Made by a program: the position numbers and the translations under genes. A stretch of 64,000 nt of DNA from Deltaproteobacteria bacterium (GTDB lineage: Bacteria > Myxococcota > XYA12-FULL-58-9): assembly GCA_016218825.1 (NCBI GenBank), contig JACRCV010000064.1:124001-188000 (forward strand). Reading direction: 5' to 3'. Below are positions 7,330 through 64,000 of this stretch, piece by piece. Each line of letters starts with the position of its first letter. Position 1 is the stretch's first letter. The notes below the pieces were generated by a model that did no database searches, had not been told where the DNA came from, and saw only the letters and a program-made list of their open reading frames with translations.

Positions 7330-9032
7330 TGCCCCCAGGGCTGGCCGGCGGCGCGGTAGAACGCCACTGCCACCGCGACGTCGATCTTGCCGCGCGTCAA
7401 CAGCTCCTTCGGAAACTGGATGGCCTCGAGGCTGCTCGCCCCCGCCATCCAGCCATAGAAGCGCCCGGTGAGGCTGGCGCTCGCGGTGTGCATCATGTCG
7501 TCCATCACCTGCTGCTCGTCGACCCGACCGCTCTCCAACAAGCTCGCGGCGTTGGTCACGAGCGGCAGCGCGCGGCTGAGGTCGCCCGCAGGCCCCTTGC
7601 CGTTCGCCCGGCGCTGCTGGTCCAAGCGCAGCCGCACCGCCAGCGCCGTCTGCTCGTGGCTCTGGACGTCGAACAGGTCGTAAGAGCTCACGAGCGCCGC
7701 CAGCACCTTGCCGTCTTCGGCGACGAGGGGCCCGATCGCGATCAGGGCGGCGTTCGGCGCCAACAGCACGTCGCGCCCCGAGGGCCGCTCGAGAAAAGCC
7801 GCGAGCAGGTCGCCGACGTCGGCGGCGTTGCTCACCAGGCCCGAGGCGAACCGGCCGGTCTGCACCAGGCCGCGCACCTGCCAGCCCGCCTGCAGCCCGA
7901 GCGCCACGGTGTCGGCGACGAGCGGCGAGAGGTCGCCCGCGATCGCCGCGAAGTAGTGCGGCACCACCCGGGTCGCGGTGGCGCTCTGTTCGGCCGCGGG
8001 CTTGAGCGGCTTCAAGCCGGCCTTGGCGCGGGTCTCGTTCAACAGGGTGAGCAGATCTGACGCCAGCGCCTCCGAGGTCGAAGCCGCTTTGCCGGCGGCG
8101 TAGCGCGGCCGCACGAAGGTCACAGGCGCGGCGCCGCTCGGCCAGACGAACAGGCTCATCAGCGGTGTCCCGAGGATGCGGCCGGTGGGAAAACCCGCGA
8201 GCTCGATCCACGCGACCTTGTCGCTCGCGGTCGTTGGGCAGTCGATGGCGAACGCCGGCATCCGCACCGCCCGGTCGACGGTGCACTCGCTGACGCCGTA
8301 GGCGCCGCGGGTCACCAGGGCGCGCACCTTCTCGAAGGCGCCGGTCACCTCGCCGCGCAAGTGAACCACACCTTTGGCGTCCGGCTGCGGGTGGGTCTGC
8401 TCGACGAACAGCAGGCGCTCGGCGGAGGTCAAGATCAAGACCGCCTTGCCGTCCTTGCGCCCGAACCACATGCCGACGTAGCGGTTGCCCGACCCGAGCC
8501 GGGTCTTGACCCCGTCGCTCAAGCGCTGCTGCCAGTTCTGCAACAGGCGCTCGTCGCTGATCTTGTCGTCGACCTTGGCCGAGAGCGTTTGGATCTGAGG
8601 CGGCGCGCTCGGCGAGCCACAACGACTGGCGATGAACTCCTTCAACCCCAGCCCCGGGTGCGCGTCGTGCGCCAGATAGAACAACCCCACCTCGCGCGCC
8701 GTGCAGTACATCGCCTCCGACGGCAAATACGCCCCCGGCCGCGCGACGATCGCGTCCGCAAACGGCTTCGCCCACCCCGCGTCGTACGCGTGCGGCACGT
8801 ACGCGAGACTGTCGGGAAACGGCCCCTGCAACGTCCACGTGTCTACTTCCTTGATTTGTCCGTAGAAAGAGGACGCGGGCGGGGGCGCTGCGGCCAGCTT
8901 CGTGAGCGCTTCGGCGTCGGGGAACGGGGAGCCGGCGGCGGCGGTGGCGCCCTTGGTGCCGGGGGACCGGCTGGCGGCGCAGGCGACCGACAGGAGGAGG
9001 GCGATGGCTGGCAGAGCGAGCTTCGCGAACAT
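7278..9032 (-). CDS. Lipoprotein with a divergent CAP/SCP-like domain
   Basis: The 584-residue product starts with a clear lipoprotein signal (MFAKLALPAIALLLSVAC). Around residues 330-380 a segment LLTLLNETRAKAGLKPLKP resembles the first helix of CAP/SCP domains, and the C-terminal GHYVAFFLV resembles their last strand. The N-terminal half is unassigned. The start at 9032 was chosen because the signal peptide begins there, not at 9110. The terminal TAG (7278-7280) comes from sequence next to direct repeat B. In the detached copy at 5942-5976 the frame continues beyond GEGV, so the natural C-terminus may have been altered by the insertion of fic. CAP assignment is tentative. Confidence 0.6.
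   Translation of the reverse strand: MFAKLALPAIALLLSVACAASRSPGTKGATAAAGSPFPDAEALTKLAAAPPPASSFYGQIKEVDTWTLQGPFPDSLAYVPHAYDAGWAKPFADAIVARPGAYLPSEAMYCTAREVGLFYLAHDAHPGLGLKEFIASRCGSPSAPPQIQTLSAKVDDKISDERLLQNWQQRLSDGVKTRLGSGNRYVGMWFGRKDGKAVLILTSAERLLFVEQTHPQPDAKGVVHLRGEVTGAFEKVRALVTRGAYGVSECTVDRAVRMPAFAIDCPTTASDKVAWIELAGFPTGRILGTPLMSLFVWPSGAAPVTFVRPRYAAGKAASTSEALASDLLTLLNETRAKAGLKPLKPAAEQSATATRVVPHYFAAIAGDLSPLVADTVALGLQAGWQVRGLVQTGRFASGLVSNAADVGDLLAAFLERPSGRDVLLAPNAALIAIGPLVAEDGKVLAALVSSYDLFDVQSHEQTALAVRLRLDQQRRANGKGPAGDLSRALPLVTNAASLLESGRVDEQQVMDDMMHTASASLTGRFYGWMAGASSLEAIQFPKELLTRGKIDVAVAVAFYRAAGQPWGHYVAFFLVMEPDVGEGV
7280..7314 (+). repeat. Direct repeat B, copy 2, right of the fic gene
   Basis: These 35 bp lie inside both the 3' end of fic and the 3' end of the convergent CAP-like lipoprotein gene. 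They match 5942-5976 with a single mismatch. Because the minus-strand gene uses this copy as its C-terminus, it is the copy still in its original gene context. Confidence 0.8.
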
Positions 9033-52129: not shown

Positions 52130-53563
52130 TCAAGCGGGGCGCAGGCGCGCGAGCTCGGCGTCGAGGCCGGCCAACACCGCGGCGTGCGCCGGGTCGCCGA
52201 TGAGGTTCACGAGCTCGAAGGGATCGTTTTCCAGATCGTAGAGCTCGTCGGTGTCGTCGGTCACGTCGGGATAGCGGATCAACTTCCAGTCGGACGTCCG
52301 CACGCCCTGGATCCGGGCGATGCCGGGCACCCAGCCCTCGGGGAAATACTCGTAGAGGAACGCCTGCCGCCAGCCGCCGTCGTCGCCGGCAAACAGCGGC
52401 AGCCACGACGCGCCCTGCATCACCTCGGGGATCGGGGCGCCGGCGAGCTCGAGCAGAGTCGGCGCCAAGTCGATCGTCAGCGCCATCGCGTCGAGGCGGG
52501 CGCCGGCGGGCACCAGCGGCGGGAATCGCACCAGCATCGGGATCCGGATCGACTCCTCGTACATCAAGCGCTTGTCGCCGCGGCGATGGGCGCCGAGCAT
52601 GAAGCCGTTGTCGCTGGTCACGAACACGAAGGTGTTGTCGAGCTCGCCCTGCGCCTCGAGGGTCTGCAGCACCCGGCCGACGCTGTCGTCGAACGCCAAG
52701 AGGCAGCGCATGTAGTCCAAAGTCGGCGGGTCGTGGGGATCGAACACCGCGGGCGGCAAGGTGTCCGGCACCTGGTAGCCGGCGCTCGCGGCCCATGACA
52801 CCTCGTCCTCGCCCCACAGCGTCGCGCGTCGCAGCCAGCGTGGCTTGGTCGCGTAGTCGTCGTCGAAGCTCTCGGGCTTCGGCAGCTCGGCGTCCGGGAA
52901 GGCGCCGGCGTGGCGGGGCGCGGGTGTCCACGGCCCATGCACCGCCTTGTGCGACAAGATCATGCAGAACGGGCTCGGGCGCGGTCGCTCCAGCCAGCGA
53001 ACGGCGTAGTCGGTGAGGAGGTCGGTGGTGTAACCGGGCACCAGGGTCTCGACGCCGTTCTCGTTCAGCGTCGGGTCGAGGTAGGGCCCCTGGCCGAAGA
53101 AGCTCAGCCAGTAGTCGAAGCCGGGGCGGGGCTCGGCGCCGCGGCGCATTTGCCACTTGCCGATGAGCGCGGTCTCGTAGCCCTGTTGTTGCAGCAGCTG
53201 CGGGTACTGCGGGATGGCCGGATCGGGATCGTTGACGCCGTTCGCGAGCACGCCGTGGCGATGGGCGTAGCAGCCGGTCAGCAGGCTGGCACGACTCGGC
53301 GAGCACAACGACGTGGTGCAGAAGCCGTTGTCGAAGGTCGCGCCCTCGGCGGCGAGGCGATCGAGGTTCGGCGTCGACAGGAACGGATAGGCGCCGGCCC
53401 CGCCCCAGGCGCGCCACGCGAGATCGTCGGCGAGGATCACGACGACGTTCGGTCGGGCCGCGCTCGCGACCGGTCGCGCCTTGCCACAGGACGACAACGC
53501 CGCGCCGGCGCCGAAGGCCGACAAGCCGCAGAGCACCTCGCGCCGACTCGGTCTGCGGCTCAT
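52130..53563 (-). CDS. Tat-exported Cys-type sulfatase
   Basis: The 477-residue protein has a twin-arginine signal (PSRREVLCGLSAFGAGAALSSC) that also ends in a lipobox, so it is probably a Tat-exported lipoprotein. The sulfatase core starts at PNVVVILADDLAW. The signature CSPSRASLLTG contains Cys87, the residue converted to formylglycine, with Arg91 in the CxPxR motif. Later motifs are GKWQM, FVFVTSDNGFMLGAH and ELYDLENDPFELVNLIGD. It hydrolyses sulfate esters, probably extracellular polysaccharide or small molecules. Its ATG overlaps the stop of the radical-SAM maturase gene (ATGA). Homology fixes the start at 53563. Confidence 0.92.
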   Translation of the reverse strand: MSRRPSRREVLCGLSAFGAGAALSSCGKARPVASAARPNVVVILADDLAWRAWGGAGAYPFLSTPNLDRLAAEGATFDNGFCTTSLCSPSRASLLTGCYAHRHGVLANGVNDPDPAIPQYPQLLQQQGYETALIGKWQMRRGAEPRPGFDYWLSFFGQGPYLDPTLNENGVETLVPGYTTDLLTDYAVRWLERPRPSPFCMILSHKAVHGPWTPAPRHAGAFPDAELPKPESFDDDYATKPRWLRRATLWGEDEVSWAASAGYQVPDTLPPAVFDPHDPPTLDYMRCLLAFDDSVGRVLQTLEAQGELDNTFVFVTSDNGFMLGAHRRGDKRLMYEESIRIPMLVRFPPLVPAGARLDAMALTIDLAPTLLELAGAPIPEVMQGASWLPLFAGDDGGWRQAFLYEYFPEGWVPGIARIQGVRTSDWKLIRYPDVTDDTDELYDLENDPFELVNLIGDPAHAAVLAGLDAELARLRPA

Positions 53564-54690
53564 CGGCGGCCCACCAGGGTCCGGCGGCGAATGGTCGCGG
53601 CGAGCGCCTCGAGGTCCGGCAGGCCGTGCTCGAGCCACATCCTGGTCGACTGACAGACGTGTGAAACGGCGTCTTCGGCCGGGCGATGCTTGGGACAGCC
53701 GCCGTGGCAGAAACGCAGGTAGTCGCAGTCCTCACACGCCGGCGCCTGCGGCTCCTTGCGTGCGGCAAAAGCGTCGAAGCGCTCCCAGTCGAGCGCCGCG
53801 AGCCAGTCGCCGTGTTCCTGCACGCTGCCGAGCTGCCAGGCGTCGACCATGAAGTGGTCGCAGGGGTACACCCGACCGTCGGCGGCGACCGTGAGCTGCG
53901 CGCTGCAGCGGCTGGCTTGGGTACACTGGGACGCGCTGCCGTAGACCAGGGTGCGGATCGCCGAGTCGAACAGGCGCACCGAGATCTGTTGGCGGCGCTC
54001 GAACCACAGGTCGAACAGCTCGCAGAGAAAATCCCCGTAGGCCTCCGGCTCGACCACGAACGACGCCGGTTGCCCGGGGTGGGCCGGATCCCACTCGACC
54101 GCCGGAATCATCTGGAGCCAGCGGGCACCGAGGCTCGTCAGCGCGTCCCAGGTCCGCTGCGGCTCCTTGACGTTGGCGTCCGTCACCACCGTGAGTACGT
54201 TGTAGGGGATGCGACGCCGGCCCAGGCGGTTGACCCCGGCGACCGCGGCGTCGTAGCTCCCGCCGCTCGCGCCAACGCGATAGCGATCGTGCGCGACAGC
54301 GCTGCCGTCGATCGAGGCCCCCACCAGAAACCGCTCCGTGGCCACGAATCGCGCCCATTCCTCGTCGATGAGGGTGGCGTTGGTTTGGATCGAGCTGAGG
54401 ACGCATTGCCCGCGCCGCTCGTGCCGGCGTTGGATCGCGAGCATCTCGCGGAACCACTCGACCCCCATCAGCGTCGGCTCGCCGCCCTGCCAGCAGATCG
54501 AGACGTCCTCCCCCGCGATCGGCAACACCGCGGCGAAGAACGCCTCGAGGGTCGCGCTGCTCATTCGCGGCTCATGGTCACGACGCGCGTAGCAGTAGCC
54601 GCAGTCGAGGTTGCAGCGCCCGCCCGCGGGCTTCAGCATCCAGGTGACCGCCGCGAGCCGGCGTGAAACCTCTGACGACGAGAGCGGCAC
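53560..54690 (-). CDS. Radical-SAM anaerobic sulfatase-maturating enzyme (anSME)
   Basis: The 376-residue protein has the radical-SAM cluster motif CNLDCGYC (Cys26, Cys30, Cys33). The downstream motifs ICWQGGEPTLMG, SIQTNATLID, GASIDG and a C-terminal SPASM-like Cys set (CTQASRC, YPCDH, CEDCDYLRFCHGGCPKHR) that would bind two more Fe-S clusters follow. This is the anSME layout; the enzyme oxidises a Cys or Ser in sulfatases to formylglycine without oxygen. Coupling by ATGA to the Cys-type sulfatase gene makes that protein its substrate. The GTG at 54690 is chosen because the conserved region starts about 17 residues later at WMLKPAGG; the frame upstream is not coding. Confidence 0.88.
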   Translation of the reverse strand: MPLSSSEVSRRLAAVTWMLKPAGGRCNLDCGYCYARRDHEPRMSSATLEAFFAAVLPIAGEDVSICWQGGEPTLMGVEWFREMLAIQRRHERRGQCVLSSIQTNATLIDEEWARFVATERFLVGASIDGSAVAHDRYRVGASGGSYDAAVAGVNRLGRRRIPYNVLTVVTDANVKEPQRTWDALTSLGARWLQMIPAVEWDPAHPGQPASFVVEPEAYGDFLCELFDLWFERRQQISVRLFDSAIRTLVYGSASQCTQASRCSAQLTVAADGRVYPCDHFMVDAWQLGSVQEHGDWLAALDWERFDAFAARKEPQAPACEDCDYLRFCHGGCPKHRPAEDAVSHVCQSTRMWLEHGLPDLEALAATIRRRTLVGRR

Positions 54691-57070: not shown

Positions 57071-57171
57071 GCGTCAGGTCGACGTCCAGACCGACTCGCG
57101 GCCGGGAGCGCCGGCCGACGACCGGCGTCCGTGCCGTTGGCACCGCGGTCGAGGTGTGCCACCGTGCCGGG

Positions 57172-58455
57172 GTGCAAAGCGCCACCTGCAAACCGATCGC
57201 GGTCTTCCTCGGACCGTCGTTGCCGCGCGCCGAGGCCGAGTCCCTCCTCGACGCCGACTACTACCCGCCGGCCCGTCACGGCGACGTCTATCGGCTGCTC
57301 GCCTCCGGCGTCCGCCTGATCGTCCTCATCGACGGAGTGTTTCACGACACCCCGTCGGTGTGGCAGCGGGAGCTCCTCGCGGCCCTCGACGAAGGGATCG
57401 CGGTCATCGGCGCCGCCAGCATGGGCGCGCTCCGGGCCGCGGAGCTGCATCCGTTCGGGATGCGCGGCTGCGGGACGGTCTTCGAGTGGTACAAGAACGG
57501 CGTCATCGAGGCCGACGACGAGGTGGCGCTGCTGCACGCCGAGGCCGACTACGACTACCGGGCGTTCTCGGAGCCGCTCGTCAACATCCGCGCCACGCTC
57601 GCGAGCGCGCGCGACGCCGGTCTGCTCTCCGCCGCCGCCGCCCAGGCCCTCGTCGGTCACGTCCGCGCCCGGCACTACTCCGAGCGCTCCTACGACGCCC
57701 TCTGGGACGCGCCGCTCTTGAAGTCGTGGCCGACGCCACAGCTCGAAGGCCTGCGGGCGCGGGTGACCGCGGCGCCGGTGAACGTCAAGGCGGCGGACGC
57801 CCGCGCGGCGCTGCGGCTGGCGCGCACCGAGGTAGATGCCGCTCCGGCGCCGCTCGGGGCGCGGCGCGATCGCTCGATCTGGGACCAGATCCGGGCGCTC
57901 TACACCGGGGTCTTCGCCGACGGCCGCGTCGTGACCACCGCGGCGATCGTCACCCAGGCGTGGAAGACGCCCGAGCTCTGGGCCGCCGTCGTCGTCCCCG
58001 GCGCCGCCGCGCCGCGGCAAGCGGTGACCGCGCTGCTCTACACCCGGTTCTTCGCGCTCCGCTGGGCCGAGCGCGCCCGGGTCTCGCCTGCAGATACCGA
58101 GCTCGCGCCGCTGCAGCGCGCCGTGGAGGCCCGGCTCGCGGTGCGGCCGACGCCGCTGCATCTGGCGGCGAACGGGCTCACCGCCCGAACCTACACCGAG
58201 ATCCTCGCCGAGCGCGCGCGCTACGAGTGGCTGCTGGCGCGCCCCGGGGTCTTTGGCGGCCCGGCGCTGGTCGCGCTGTGGGCCGACGCTCACGGCGTGA
58301 CGCTGCCGCAGGTGGCGCCTGCCGGCCTGGTGGCCGCGATCATCGACCGCGGCCCGCTGCACTTCGGCTACGACTGGAACTTCGAGGTCGCGTTTGCCCG
58401 CGAGCTGCAGCTCTGCGGCCTCGCCGCCACCATCCTGCGCTCGGTGCCATCGTGA
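57172..58455 (+). CDS. tfuA: TfuA-like protein
   Basis: The 427-residue protein starts with the TfuA core: IAVFLGPSLPRAEAESLLD, YYPPARHGDVYRLLASGVRLIVLIDGVFHD, and VIGAASMGALRAAELHPFGM, then GTVFEWYKNGVIEADDEVALLHA. TfuA proteins partner with YcaO enzymes; in methanogens and in thiovarsolin biosynthesis the pair makes a backbone thioamide. The C-terminal 220 residues form an extra helical domain beyond the core. The GTG at 57172 is chosen because the core strand begins seven residues later; a GTG at 57154 is possible. Its stop overlaps the start of the ycaO gene. No precursor peptide or sulfur-donor gene is seen beside it. Confidence 0.9.
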   Translation: MQSATCKPIAVFLGPSLPRAEAESLLDADYYPPARHGDVYRLLASGVRLIVLIDGVFHDTPSVWQRELLAALDEGIAVIGAASMGALRAAELHPFGMRGCGTVFEWYKNGVIEADDEVALLHAEADYDYRAFSEPLVNIRATLASARDAGLLSAAAAQALVGHVRARHYSERSYDALWDAPLLKSWPTPQLEGLRARVTAAPVNVKAADARAALRLARTEVDAAPAPLGARRDRSIWDQIRALYTGVFADGRVVTTAAIVTQAWKTPELWAAVVVPGAAAPRQAVTALLYTRFFALRWAERARVSPADTELAPLQRAVEARLAVRPTPLHLAANGLTARTYTEILAERARYEWLLARPGVFGGPALVALWADAHGVTLPQVAPAGLVAAIIDRGPLHFGYDWNFEVAFARELQLCGLAATILRSVPS

Positions 58456-59624
58456 GCCACGAGGCGCTCGACAAAGGCTACACTCTCGGCACCCACCGCC
58501 TGGTGCCCCCGGAGACGACGCTCACGACCATCACGCCGCACCTCTCTGCGATGGGCATCACCCGCCTCGCCGACGTCACCGGGCTCGACCGCCTCGGCAT
58601 CCCGACCTTCTGCGCCATTCGCCCGGGCGCGCGCCTGGTGCAGGTGGCGAACGGCAAAGGGCTCGTCGACGCCGACGCCCGGGTCTCGGCCCTGATGGAG
58701 GCCATCGAGGTCTTCCACGCCGAGGAGCCGACGCTGCCGGTCGTCACCTCGAGCTTCGCCGCCCTCTGCGCCGCGGGGCAGGCGGTCGCAAAGCCGCAGG
58801 CGCTGCCCGGCTTCGTCACCGGCCACCATTATAATGATGATTACGTGGTCGACTGGGTGCCGGCCGAGGAGCTGCACTCCGGCGCGCGGGTGCTGGTCCC
58901 GGCGTCCGCCGCCTACCCGGTGTCGCCGTCGCTCTACCTCTGGTGGACGAACGGTCTCGCGAGCGGCAACCACCTGGTGGAGGCGACCCTGCATGCCCTC
59001 TACGAGATCATCGAGCGGCACGCGATGGCGACCGCGGTGCTGCCGGACCCCGACCCGCTGGCGCTGTTGCGGCCGCGGGTGAGCTACCTGCGCCTGGCGA
59101 CCATCACCAGCGCCCCGGTCGCCGAGCTCTGCGAGCGCATCGCCCGTCACGACCTCAAGCTCCTCTTGGCGACCGTGAAGAGCGCGGTGCCGGTGCACAC
59201 CTTCTGGGCGATCTTGCTCGACAAGAAACCCCAGGCCCTCACCACGCTCGTCAACACCGGCTACGGCACGCACGCGAGCCCTACGGTCGCCGCGATCCGC
59301 GCCATCACCGAGGCGGCGCAGTCGCGCCTCGCGATGATCCACGCCAGCCGCGAGGACGTAGCGCACAAGCCGGCGTTCACCGACCACGACAAGCTCTCCC
59401 GCGGCTACGCGTTCTTCGACAACATCATCGGCGGCGGCGACTGGCGGTTCCTCTGCGACTACAGCCGCGCCTCGCTGCGCGACGACTACGAGCGCCTGGT
59501 CGCGGCGCTCGCGACGTGCGGCGCCGGCCAGATCTTGCGCGTCGATCTCACCCGCGCGCCGTTCAATATCCCGGTGGTCAAGGTCATCGTGCCGGGCTTC
59601 CGGTTCGACGACCGTCTGGTGTAG
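58452..59624 (+). CDS. ycaO: YcaO-domain protein paired with TfuA
   Basis: The 390-residue protein covers a full YcaO domain: MGITRLADVTGLDRLGIPTF, RVSALMEAIEVFHAEE (first Glu cluster for ATP/Mg), LHALYEIIERHAMATAV (second), AAIRAITEAAQSRLAMIHASR (third), and a C-terminal PFNIPVVKVIVPGFRFDD. YcaO enzymes activate peptide amide oxygens with ATP; with TfuA the expected chemistry is thioamide formation. The GTG at 58452 lies within the tfuA stop (GTGA), so the two are co-translated. The target could be a short RiPP precursor elsewhere or a housekeeping protein; none is visible in the window. Confidence 0.92.
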   Translation: MSHEALDKGYTLGTHRLVPPETTLTTITPHLSAMGITRLADVTGLDRLGIPTFCAIRPGARLVQVANGKGLVDADARVSALMEAIEVFHAEEPTLPVVTSSFAALCAAGQAVAKPQALPGFVTGHHYNDDYVVDWVPAEELHSGARVLVPASAAYPVSPSLYLWWTNGLASGNHLVEATLHALYEIIERHAMATAVLPDPDPLALLRPRVSYLRLATITSAPVAELCERIARHDLKLLLATVKSAVPVHTFWAILLDKKPQALTTLVNTGYGTHASPTVAAIRAITEAAQSRLAMIHASREDVAHKPAFTDHDKLSRGYAFFDNIIGGGDWRFLCDYSRASLRDDYERLVAALATCGAGQILRVDLTRAPFNIPVVKVIVPGFRFDDRLV

Positions 59625-59636
59625 CGTCGGCGCGCC

Positions 59637-60746
59637 TCAGGGCCAGGTGGTGATCACGAGCTCGGAGCGGCCCTGCAAGCCGCCGCGGCAGCCGCCGCGA
59701 CACATGCTGCTGATCATGAACGCGACCTTGTCGCCCGCGGCCGGGTACCAGGAGTTGATCGGATAGGACTCCGCCTGGATGAACGGCGCCTGGGTCCCGA
59801 CCCACTCCAAGCGCGAGCACTGGCGCGTCCAGTCGGAGCGCAGCCACTCGAAGGTCGCCGCGTACCACCGACCGTTGATGTAGCCGAACACCCAGGCGTT
59901 GCCGTTCACCATGTGCCCCACCGTTCCCTCCTCGGTGTAGGCGGGCTTGGTCATGTCCCAGCAGATGTTGCGATGGGCGCTATCGATCGTGACGTTGGTC
60001 ATCGTGGCGTTCACCGGAAAACCGGCCGGACTGCCGTGACCCCAGGTCACGGTGCTCAAGTTCGGGTCGGGAACCGCATCGGGCGGCGGCCGATCGCCGA
60101 TGCACACGCCCGCGCCGTTGCAGCGATCGTTGTTGGTGCCGGCGTTGCCGTCGTTGCAGCTGACCGTGCCGTCCGGGAAGACCTCGGCGCAGGCCGCGGT
60201 GCCGTCGCAGGTGCGATTGGCGCCGCAGGTGGTGCCGTCATCGACACAGGAGATCGCGACACCGGCGCAGCCGCCGGCGCCGTCACAGACGTCGTGATGG
60301 GTGCACAGCTCGCCGTCGTTGCAGGCGACGGCGCCGCCGGCAAACGTCTCGCTGCAGGTCGCGGTGCCGTTGCAGGCACGACGCGCGCCGCAGACCCCGG
60401 GGTCGTCGTCGCAGACCAGCTCGGCTCCCCCACAGCTGCCGTGGTCGTCGCAGGTGTCGTCGAAGGTGCAGGGGTCGTTGTCGTCGCAGGCCTCCCCCGG
60501 TCGGCAGGGCGCGCAGGTCCCGTCCGGGATGCACACCGTGCCTGCGGTCGTACACTCGCCGCAGGACTGGTGGCAGACCGGATCGAGCCCGCAGTGCAGC
60601 CCGCGACAATCGGGGACGCAGGCCGGCGGCTCGTCGACGGGATCCAGCGACACGTTGATCGGCTCGCCGAGCTCGCCGCTCGCCATCTCGGCACAGCCGA
60701 CCACGCTCGCGAGAAGACACAAGGCGGGGATGCGAAGGTCCGGCAC
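59637..60746 (-). CDS. Cys-rich repeat lipoprotein with unknown C-terminal domain
   Basis: The 369-residue product has a lipoprotein signal (LCLLASVVGC). About ten short Cys/Asp-rich units (residues about 35-230) follow, such as CDDNDPCTFDDTCDDHGSCGG and CNDGELCTHHDVCDGAGGC, the DxDPCT-like pattern of many myxobacterial secreted proteins. The C-terminal domain (about 240-369) is Trp/Asn-rich with two Cys pairs (NICWDMTKPAYTEEGTVG, CRGGCRGG). The GTG at 60746 has AGGAGG at good spacing; the frame to 61046 upstream is not coding. It is convergent with the TfuA-YcaO pair. It might be a modified target only by proximity. Confidence 0.7.
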   Translation of the reverse strand: MPDLRIPALCLLASVVGCAEMASGELGEPINVSLDPVDEPPACVPDCRGLHCGLDPVCHQSCGECTTAGTVCIPDGTCAPCRPGEACDDNDPCTFDDTCDDHGSCGGAELVCDDDPGVCGARRACNGTATCSETFAGGAVACNDGELCTHHDVCDGAGGCAGVAISCVDDGTTCGANRTCDGTAACAEVFPDGTVSCNDGNAGTNNDRCNGAGVCIGDRPPPDAVPDPNLSTVTWGHGSPAGFPVNATMTNVTIDSAHRNICWDMTKPAYTEEGTVGHMVNGNAWVFGYINGRWYAATFEWLRSDWTRQCSRLEWVGTQAPFIQAESYPINSWYPAAGDKVAFMISSMCRGGCRGGLQGRSELVITTWP

Positions 60747-62379: not shown

Positions 62380-62418
62380 GCCGCGGCGGTTGGCGACGTG
62401 CGTGAGGAAGGCAATTTG

Positions 62419-64000
62419 GTGAGCGCCACGAGCGACGTGTTCTCGCGGCTGCCGGACGCCTTGCGCCAGGCCCTGGTCGATTCGCTCGCCGCCGCCGACA
62501 CCGTGGTCGCGCTCGTCGTCCTCGACCTGGACCAGGACCTCAGGTTCAGAGATGGGCTCATTGTGCTCACCCGCTCCAGGCTGGTCGCCGTGCAGTCGAC
62601 CGACGCCGGCGCCAAGGTCCAGGGGTGGCCGCTCGCCGAGGTCGACCTGTTGCGCTGTGAAGACCGCGGTGGTCTCGGGACGCTCGAGGCCACGACCAAG
62701 GACGCGCTCCTCGGTCGGTGGCACTACACCGTCGGGCTCGCGAAGCAGGTGGCGGTGCTCGTCGATTTAGTGTCGCAAGCGAAGGCCGGGGTGCGGCTCG
62801 ACGAGGCCGGCGCGGCGCTCGAGCCCGAGATCCCCGAGGCCGTGGCGCCGGAGACCCCGCCCAAGGTCGGCGTGCTCTTCAAACTACTGCGCTTTGCCCG
62901 GCCGCACATCGCGACCTTGATCTTCGGCGTGCTGCTCAGCCTGGCGACCACCGCCGCCGGCCTGGTGCCGCCCTACTTGACGTGGCCGCTCGTCGACGAC
63001 GTGCTGGCGCCGTACCAGAACGAGGTGCGCGAGCTCCGCGCCGCGCCCGAGCAGAGCGACAGCGCCAGAGCCACCAAGCTCGAGGCGCTGCGCCACGAGC
63101 ACCACGAGCCGTTCGCCAGGGTTCCCTGGTACCTCGGCGGCATGCTCGCCGCCGCGCTGTTGGCGTGGGTGCTGGCGTGGGCGCAGGGCTGGGTGCTGGC
63201 GCGGCTCTCGGAGCGGGTCAGCGCCGACTTGCGCAACACCACCTACGCGCATTTGCACAAGCTGTCGTTGGACTACTTCAGCGCCAAGCGCACCGGCGAT
63301 TTGGTGGCGCGCATCAGCAGCGACACCGATCGGATCTGCAACTTCCTCTCCGACACCCTGATGGACTTCGCGACCGACATCCTGATGATCGCCGGCACCG
63401 CGGTGATGCTGTTCGCGATGGATCCGGTGCTGGCGCTCGCGACCTTGACCACCTTCCCGCTCGTCGCCTGGTTGACGCTCTACACCCGCAACCGCCTGAC
63501 GCACGGGTTCTTGCACGGCAGCCGCGCCTGGGCCGACATGACCAGCATCCTCGCCGACACCATCCCCGGGGTGCGGGTCGTCAAGGCGTTCGCGCAGGAG
63601 CAGCGCGAGATCGAGCGCTTCCGGGCCGCGAACGACCGCATCGTCGCCGCCAACGACCGCGTCAACCGGCTGTGGACCTTCTTCTGGCCTCTCGTCGCGC
63701 TGCTCAATCAGATCGGGCTGCTCGTCGCCTGGGCGCTCGGCGCCTGGCGGGTCTTCGACCAGCGCATCACCGTCGGCGTGCTGACCGCGTTTCTGGCCTA
63801 CATCGCCCGCTTCTACACCCGCCTCGAGTCGATGACGCGGATGGCCGGCAACACCCAGCGGGCGGCGGCGAGCGCCCAGCGGATCTTCGACGTCTTGGAC
63901 CGCACGCCGAGCGTCCCCGAGCCCGCGCATCCGGTCCACCCCGAGAAGCTCGCGGGCGCGATCGCCATCAACGGCGTCAGCTTCCGCTTCGGCAACCGCC
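62419..64000 (+). CDS. ABC exporter (type 1), N-terminal part; truncated by window end
   Basis: The frame is open from the GTG at 62419 (GAGGAAGG 7 nt upstream) to the window edge, giving 527 codons. Residues 1-135 are a soluble beta-rich domain, perhaps PH-like (LRFRDGLIVLTRSRLVAVQS, LLGRWHYTVGL). The six-helix exporter membrane domain follows from about residue 155 (FARPHIATLIFGVLLSLATT), with family motifs LSERVSADLRNTTYAHLHKL, YFSAKRTGDLVARISSDTDR and GVRVVKAFAQEQREIERF. The last visible residues (AIAINGVSFRFGNR) begin the ATP-binding domain. It exports a lipid, peptide or drug; the substrate is not predictable. The N-terminal domain is unusual for this class. Confidence 0.9.
   Translation, partial: MSATSDVFSRLPDALRQALVDSLAAADTVVALVVLDLDQDLRFRDGLIVLTRSRLVAVQSTDAGAKVQGWPLAEVDLLRCEDRGGLGTLEATTKDALLGRWHYTVGLAKQVAVLVDLVSQAKAGVRLDEAGAALEPEIPEAVAPETPPKVGVLFKLLRFARPHIATLIFGVLLSLATTAAGLVPPYLTWPLVDDVLAPYQNEVRELRAAPEQSDSARATKLEALRHEHHEPFARVPWYLGGMLAAALLAWVLAWAQGWVLARLSERVSADLRNTTYAHLHKLSLDYFSAKRTGDLVARISSDTDRICNFLSDTLMDFATDILMIAGTAVMLFAMDPVLALATLTTFPLVAWLTLYTRNRLTHGFLHGSRAWADMTSILADTIPGVRVVKAFAQEQREIERFRAANDRIVAANDRVNRLWTFFWPLVALLNQIGLLVAWALGAWRVFDQRITVGVLTAFLAYIARFYTRLESMTRMAGNTQRAAASAQRIFDVLDRTPSVPEPAHPVHPEKLAGAIAINGVSFRFGNR

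Follow-up and report, generated by a model that had tools for sequence, protein, structure and literature searches.

Pairs of YcaO and TfuA proteins are known to thioamidate peptides (PMC13174530, PMC6511847), with TfuA being a hydrolase that acts on ThiS carriers (PMC13063428). Thioamidation of proteins by YcaO is also established, for McrA (PMC5589413) and for the ribosomal protein uL16 (PMC13063428), and these two are the only proteins known to carry backbone thioamides among the systems compared here. Because so few protein targets are known, any TfuA–YcaO pair that lacks a precursor peptide offers a clue to another. Such a pair lies in the window, that is, the whole 64,000-nucleotide stretch of DNA analysed, which belongs to contig C40 of a Myxococcota genome of 6.5 Mb (121 contigs, 96.5% complete).

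The tfuA gene occupies positions 57172 to 58455 of the forward strand and encodes 427 residues between a GTG start and a TGA stop (PF07812, E=2.5e-45 with Pfam). Translation could also begin at a GTG at 57154, which would lengthen TfuA by six residues, so the start of the protein is uncertain by that amount. The ycaO gene follows on the same strand (58452 to 59624; 390 residues, GTG start, TAG stop; PF02624, E=8.7e-67 with Pfam) and is of the thioamide type in the tree. The tfuA stop and the ycaO start share four bases, GTGA, at 58452 to 58455, an overlap that an earlier note on this DNA had described, that the sequence confirms and that suggests translational coupling. The same note had called the family motifs intact, and indeed both proteins retain the columns that are invariant in the alignments of their whole clade and align to solved relatives, TfuA to 6xp8 (E 9e-39) and YcaO to MJ1094 (6pe3, E 1e-31). 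In an AlphaFold2 model, residues 7 to 224 of TfuA (57190 to 57843, forward strand) form the catalytic domain, which superposes on 6xp8 over 215 residues (VIA-align Z 26.7, rmsd 2.7). The locus therefore has the features of a TfuA–YcaO thioamidation pair, a PF07812 protein with the catalytic fold adjacent to a PF02624 protein with the conserved residues, and backbone O-to-S exchange is the chemistry to be expected of it. This TfuA is the only one in the genome, which also encodes ThiS-family proteins. A second, distant and stand-alone YcaO is encoded on contig C108 (L038 9315-10928); it has 537 residues, shares about 24% identity with the YcaO of the window, has no adjoining TfuA and scores under all NCBIfam equivalog cut-offs.

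The relationships of the pair were assessed in trees of 67 YcaO and 67 TfuA rows and by a GTDB-wide scan with the YcaO proteins of the window and of a genome of the same family, G002. The scan gave 42 loci, selected by sequence and not by context, and is not exhaustive, since only two short peptide patterns were used. Loci L049, L065 and L069 yielded no usable gene calls. The window pair falls in a clade of 16 rows (YcaO 100/99, TfuA 99) that comprises Cyanobacteria, one Chloroflexota, Acidobacteriota, one gammaproteobacterium and a few Myxococcota, and tfuA precedes ycaO in every member. An extra member, L154 from Myxococcota family f13, was detected through its C-terminal module. Most of the Myxococcota TfuAs sampled belong to a separate clade, with 28 TfuA rows, in which YcaO comes before TfuA. 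Judged by these sequences, the window clade is a horizontally scattered, cross-phylum group that stands apart from the Myxococcota core pairs. This cross-phylum distribution speaks against a target peculiar to Myxococcota, for which the earlier note had left room, as does the lack of conserved neighbours of the window pair even within its genus. In the same-genus genome G001 (86% complete) the tfuA–ycaO pair was not found, and pieces of the window region are scattered over different contigs of a fragmented assembly with other neighbours, so that a conserved neighbourhood within the genus was rejected. A sulfatase beside a radical SAM/SPASM protein resembling an anaerobic sulfatase maturase (window 52130-54660; 316 bits, cut-off 349) is adjoined by the same partner in G001 too.

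The loci of the clade are rich in the marks of ribosomal peptide (RiPP) biosynthesis, which lie beside 15 of the 17 other members. A leader-type precursor is present in 11 of the 17, nine found by a uniform small-ORF scan for GG-leader precursors and the others at L090 and L093, the latter an NHLP precursor above cut-off. Across the Myxococcota core clade (24 loci) the same scan gave two matches, neither of them credible, and seven loci of the methanogen type gave none. The precursors and associated enzymes are of several kinds. Nif11 matches occur at L091 (above cut-off) and at L078 and L086 (below it); precursors of this type are already on record from TfuA clusters, in Anabaena among others (PMC8120280). 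L084 has a lantibiotic precursor of the mersacidin/lichenicidin type, L088 has a LanM of 790 bits with a C39-peptidase transporter, and L080, L081, L085 and L079 have genes that fall in BLAST clusters with LanM or C39/NHLM-type transporter genes. The Myxococcota precursors of the clade (L088 13956-14135, L090 8585-8833 and L154 16085-16252) share the motif GG[AM]IP at the junction of leader and core. Genes for ThiS-like carriers adjoin two of the pairs (L059 2200-2475 and L154 4043-4333). L154 4043-17736 is an apparent RiPP cluster of the thioamide type, with the ThiS carrier and a 55-residue GG-leader precursor, and also with an MvdD-type pre-ATP-grasp protein, a glycosyltransferase and JmjC/cupin oxygenases. 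Only two members, L092 and the pair of G002 (L059, the same as L089), have neither a precursor nor a LanM or transporter hallmark. At L092, from Sulfidibacter corallicola, no precursor was recognised in the locus, and a methylase-like protein (7581-8381; weak match to YabN methyltransferase) encoded directly 5′ of the pair possibly acts on the same peptide as TfuA and YcaO. Precursor genes adjoin most of the closest relatives, a finding that by the earlier note's own account counts against its reading.

At the window pair itself no precursor gene was found. The uniform scan, which recovered the precursors in three control loci, detected no small ORF of the GG-leader precursor kind either in the window, where the earlier note had seen no short peptide gene, or in the 20 kb of contig that flank it to the left and to the right; precursors of other types may nevertheless lie near the pair. 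Searches of the window genome with Nif11, NHLP and LanM models gave no match. The pattern GG[AM]IP was tried as a route to the precursor and rejected, because its two matches in the genome both lie inside long frames and are attributable to chance. The partial ABC exporter at window 62398-64000 best matches a cyanophycin-associated ABC transporter model, below cut-off, and on this sequence match is not a peptide exporter. This accords with the earlier statement that no transporter dedicated to a peptide lies nearby. The further statement that no methanogen enzyme adjoins the pair is also borne out. Since no precursor gene was found, the pair is classed as a RiPP-type enzyme pair and not as a RiPP cluster, and the empty searches leave three choices: that it is fed in trans by something unrecognised, that it has been repurposed, or that it is orphaned.

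The C-terminal part of TfuA offers a clue to how a substrate might be handled. In the AlphaFold2 model (pLDDT 86.9) the catalytic domain ends near residue 224 and a helical domain follows (residues 231-427; 57862 to 58452, forward strand), which has a pLDDT of 89.7 when folded alone. The long C-terminal addition reported earlier is thus real, but it has about 200 residues, not about 220, and it is not a peculiarity of this protein, being common to long TfuAs generally. In the clade it is a tandem repeat of one helical module (hhalign 99.9%; catalytic-domain controls at most 0.5), matched in the window TfuA at residues 290 to 362 and 385 to 423, approximately, of the 427-residue form, the second copy being partial. 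In a search of 8,884 ORFs the module was essentially confined to the TfuAs of the window clade, although a comparison of profiles shows that the core Myxococcota TfuAs have C-termini related to it (96%). Against a SurA_N profile built here the module gives 80.6% in hhalign, compared with at most 4.9% for 32 unrelated control families and 7.2% for the TfuA catalytic domain, and two relatives have weak Pfam matches to SurA_N (0.0058 and 0.07). A structure search with the full model matched the catalytic domain only, and Foldseek with the C-terminal domain alone gave no match below E 0.9. In the structural comparison that the earlier note had proposed, chains of the SurA/PrsA/PPIase type do take the first five VIA-align rows, yet with Z at most 3.8, which is meaningless alone, so the C-terminal fold is not assignable from structure alone. 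By profile, the module resembles, remotely, the N-terminal chaperone domain of SurA. A protein with a SurA-like domain is an essential partner of a RiPP synthetase in rosaritide biosynthesis (PMC13097080). Taken with the profile similarity, this precedent suggests a substrate-holding role, in which the SurA-like modules of TfuA probably bind the peptide or keep it in place. No literature linking TfuA with SurA or a chaperone was found among papers available without subscription.

The trees and the neighbourhoods together group the enzymes of the window pair with pairs from RiPP clusters, and this kinship makes a peptide the likeliest substrate. We therefore favour, with a probability of roughly 0.55, a backbone thioamidation pair of the RiPP type whose peptide is encoded elsewhere or has gone unrecognised. 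In such a system YcaO would activate a backbone amide of the peptide at the expense of ATP. TfuA would free sulfide from a thiocarboxylated carrier of the ThiS type, the presumed route of the sulfur, and pass it to the activated amide, completing the exchange of oxygen for sulfur. The SurA-like modules would hold the peptide and so do the work of a separate recognition domain, and the precursor, encoded away from the pair, would act in trans or be of a kind missed by the scans.

A tenable, if doubtful, alternative is that, in this Myxococcota family, a captured RiPP enzyme pair has come to thioamidate a cellular protein, as occurs with McrA or uL16. G002 is the only other genome of the family with a TfuA, and no precursor was seen near the pair at its locus, as is the case for the window pair. 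The G002 block (L059 1168-9466, the contig ending at MoeA) unites MoeA, a transporter of binding protein, permease and ATPase that resembles tungstate uptake, a ThiF upstream of TfuA and YcaO and, downstream of them, a ThiS-like protein and a convergently encoded ThiF/MoeB. This arrangement is as expected if a ThiS carrier delivers the sulfur, but the cofactor genes could hint at a metalloenzyme target instead. That the family pair lost its precursor and was redirected onto a cellular protein, with the ThiS/ThiF and Mo/W-cofactor genes of G002 pointing to a metalloenzyme, seems unlikely. The neighbours of the window pair and the G002 pair differ. A molybdenum or tungsten link was rejected for the window, since the genes next to its pair include none for Mo/W that could be recognised and a search of its genome found no aldehyde:ferredoxin oxidoreductase. 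In a joint analysis of YcaO and TfuA a sister relationship of the two pairs is not rejected (p-AU 0.105), the placement inside the clade not being fixed, whereas the tree of YcaO alone joins the window with Cyanobacteria and Chloroflexota (99/95). The rest of the clade is found beside peptides, and the window YcaO, with a pI of 6.5, is unlike the acidic YcaO of the uL16 type, which has a pI of 4.4 in Escherichia coli (PMC13063428).

It is improbable that the pair is an orphaned remnant, transferred without its precursor or outliving it, and now without a substrate. Its apparent absence from G001 would suit such a history, as would surroundings that are unrelated and not conserved, with no precursor found. 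However, both frames are intact with their conserved residues, and the GC3 values of the pair (0.93 and 0.95) match those of the window genes (0.911, sd 0.039), so recent transfer as judged by base composition was rejected: the pair did not arrive recently, and both of its genes appear to be under selection. Least probable is a nearby precursor that is non-GG, unannotated or an adjacent protein such as the Cys-rich product of the convergent gene at 59637-60746, since, although clade members use several unrelated leader types and a Cys-rich protein lies near the G002 pair as well, the gaps to the divergent ubiE/menG-type methyltransferase gene on the other flank and to the Cys-rich gene (about 100 and 12 bases) are too short for any gene, the few leftover small ORFs are not precursor-like, and Cys-rich proteins of this kind are encoded elsewhere in the genome.

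The idea of a housekeeping target fits the Myxococcota core clade much better than the window pair. The core clade spans at least five Myxococcota families (f13, f17, f21, f24 and f26; examples are L061 8458-11051, L067 8358-10723 and L068 5222-7233, from the set L040-L075). With no credible precursor at the loci scanned, and with neighbours that are family-specific, none being common to different families, it looks like a system for housekeeping protein modification. It is thus a candidate for housekeeping protein thioamidation and a good place to seek a new thioamidated protein. The SurA-like domain of the long TfuAs, for its part, could explain how substrates are held. These two by-products of the analysis matter more than the window pair.

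The window pair shares with the thioamidated RiPP clusters, those of the thioviridamide-like compounds, thiovarsolins and thioamidated thiopeptides (PMC6511847, PMC13174530), the adjacency of TfuA and YcaO, and its relatives likewise have Nif11, NHLP or lanthipeptide precursors, the Nif11-type clusters of Anabaena (PMC8120280) being an example. It differs from them in having TfuA first, in its duplicated SurA-like modules and in having no adjoining precursor or peptide transporter. The YcaO–TfuA pair that forms the thioglycine of McrA in methanogens (PMC5589413) is of the same families, and its models give the best NCBIfam matches of the window pair, TIGR03266 (McrA-glycine thioamidation) for YcaO and NF033432, but the scores of 204 and 203 bits fall short of what these models require (365 and 235 bits), no McrA adjoins the window pair, the gene order is reversed and the tree branch is separate. 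The E. coli YcaO that acts on uL16 (PMC13063428) shares the YcaO family and proves that protein targets exist, yet it is acidic and works without a TfuA, and the window YcaO reaches only 28 bits against the NF040716 cut-off of 700. In the rosaritide system (PMC13097080) a SurA-like domain also serves a RiPP enzyme, there on a separate protein, MirC, that partners an ATP-grasp synthetase and is not fused to TfuA, whereas in the window the SurA-like modules are part of TfuA itself.
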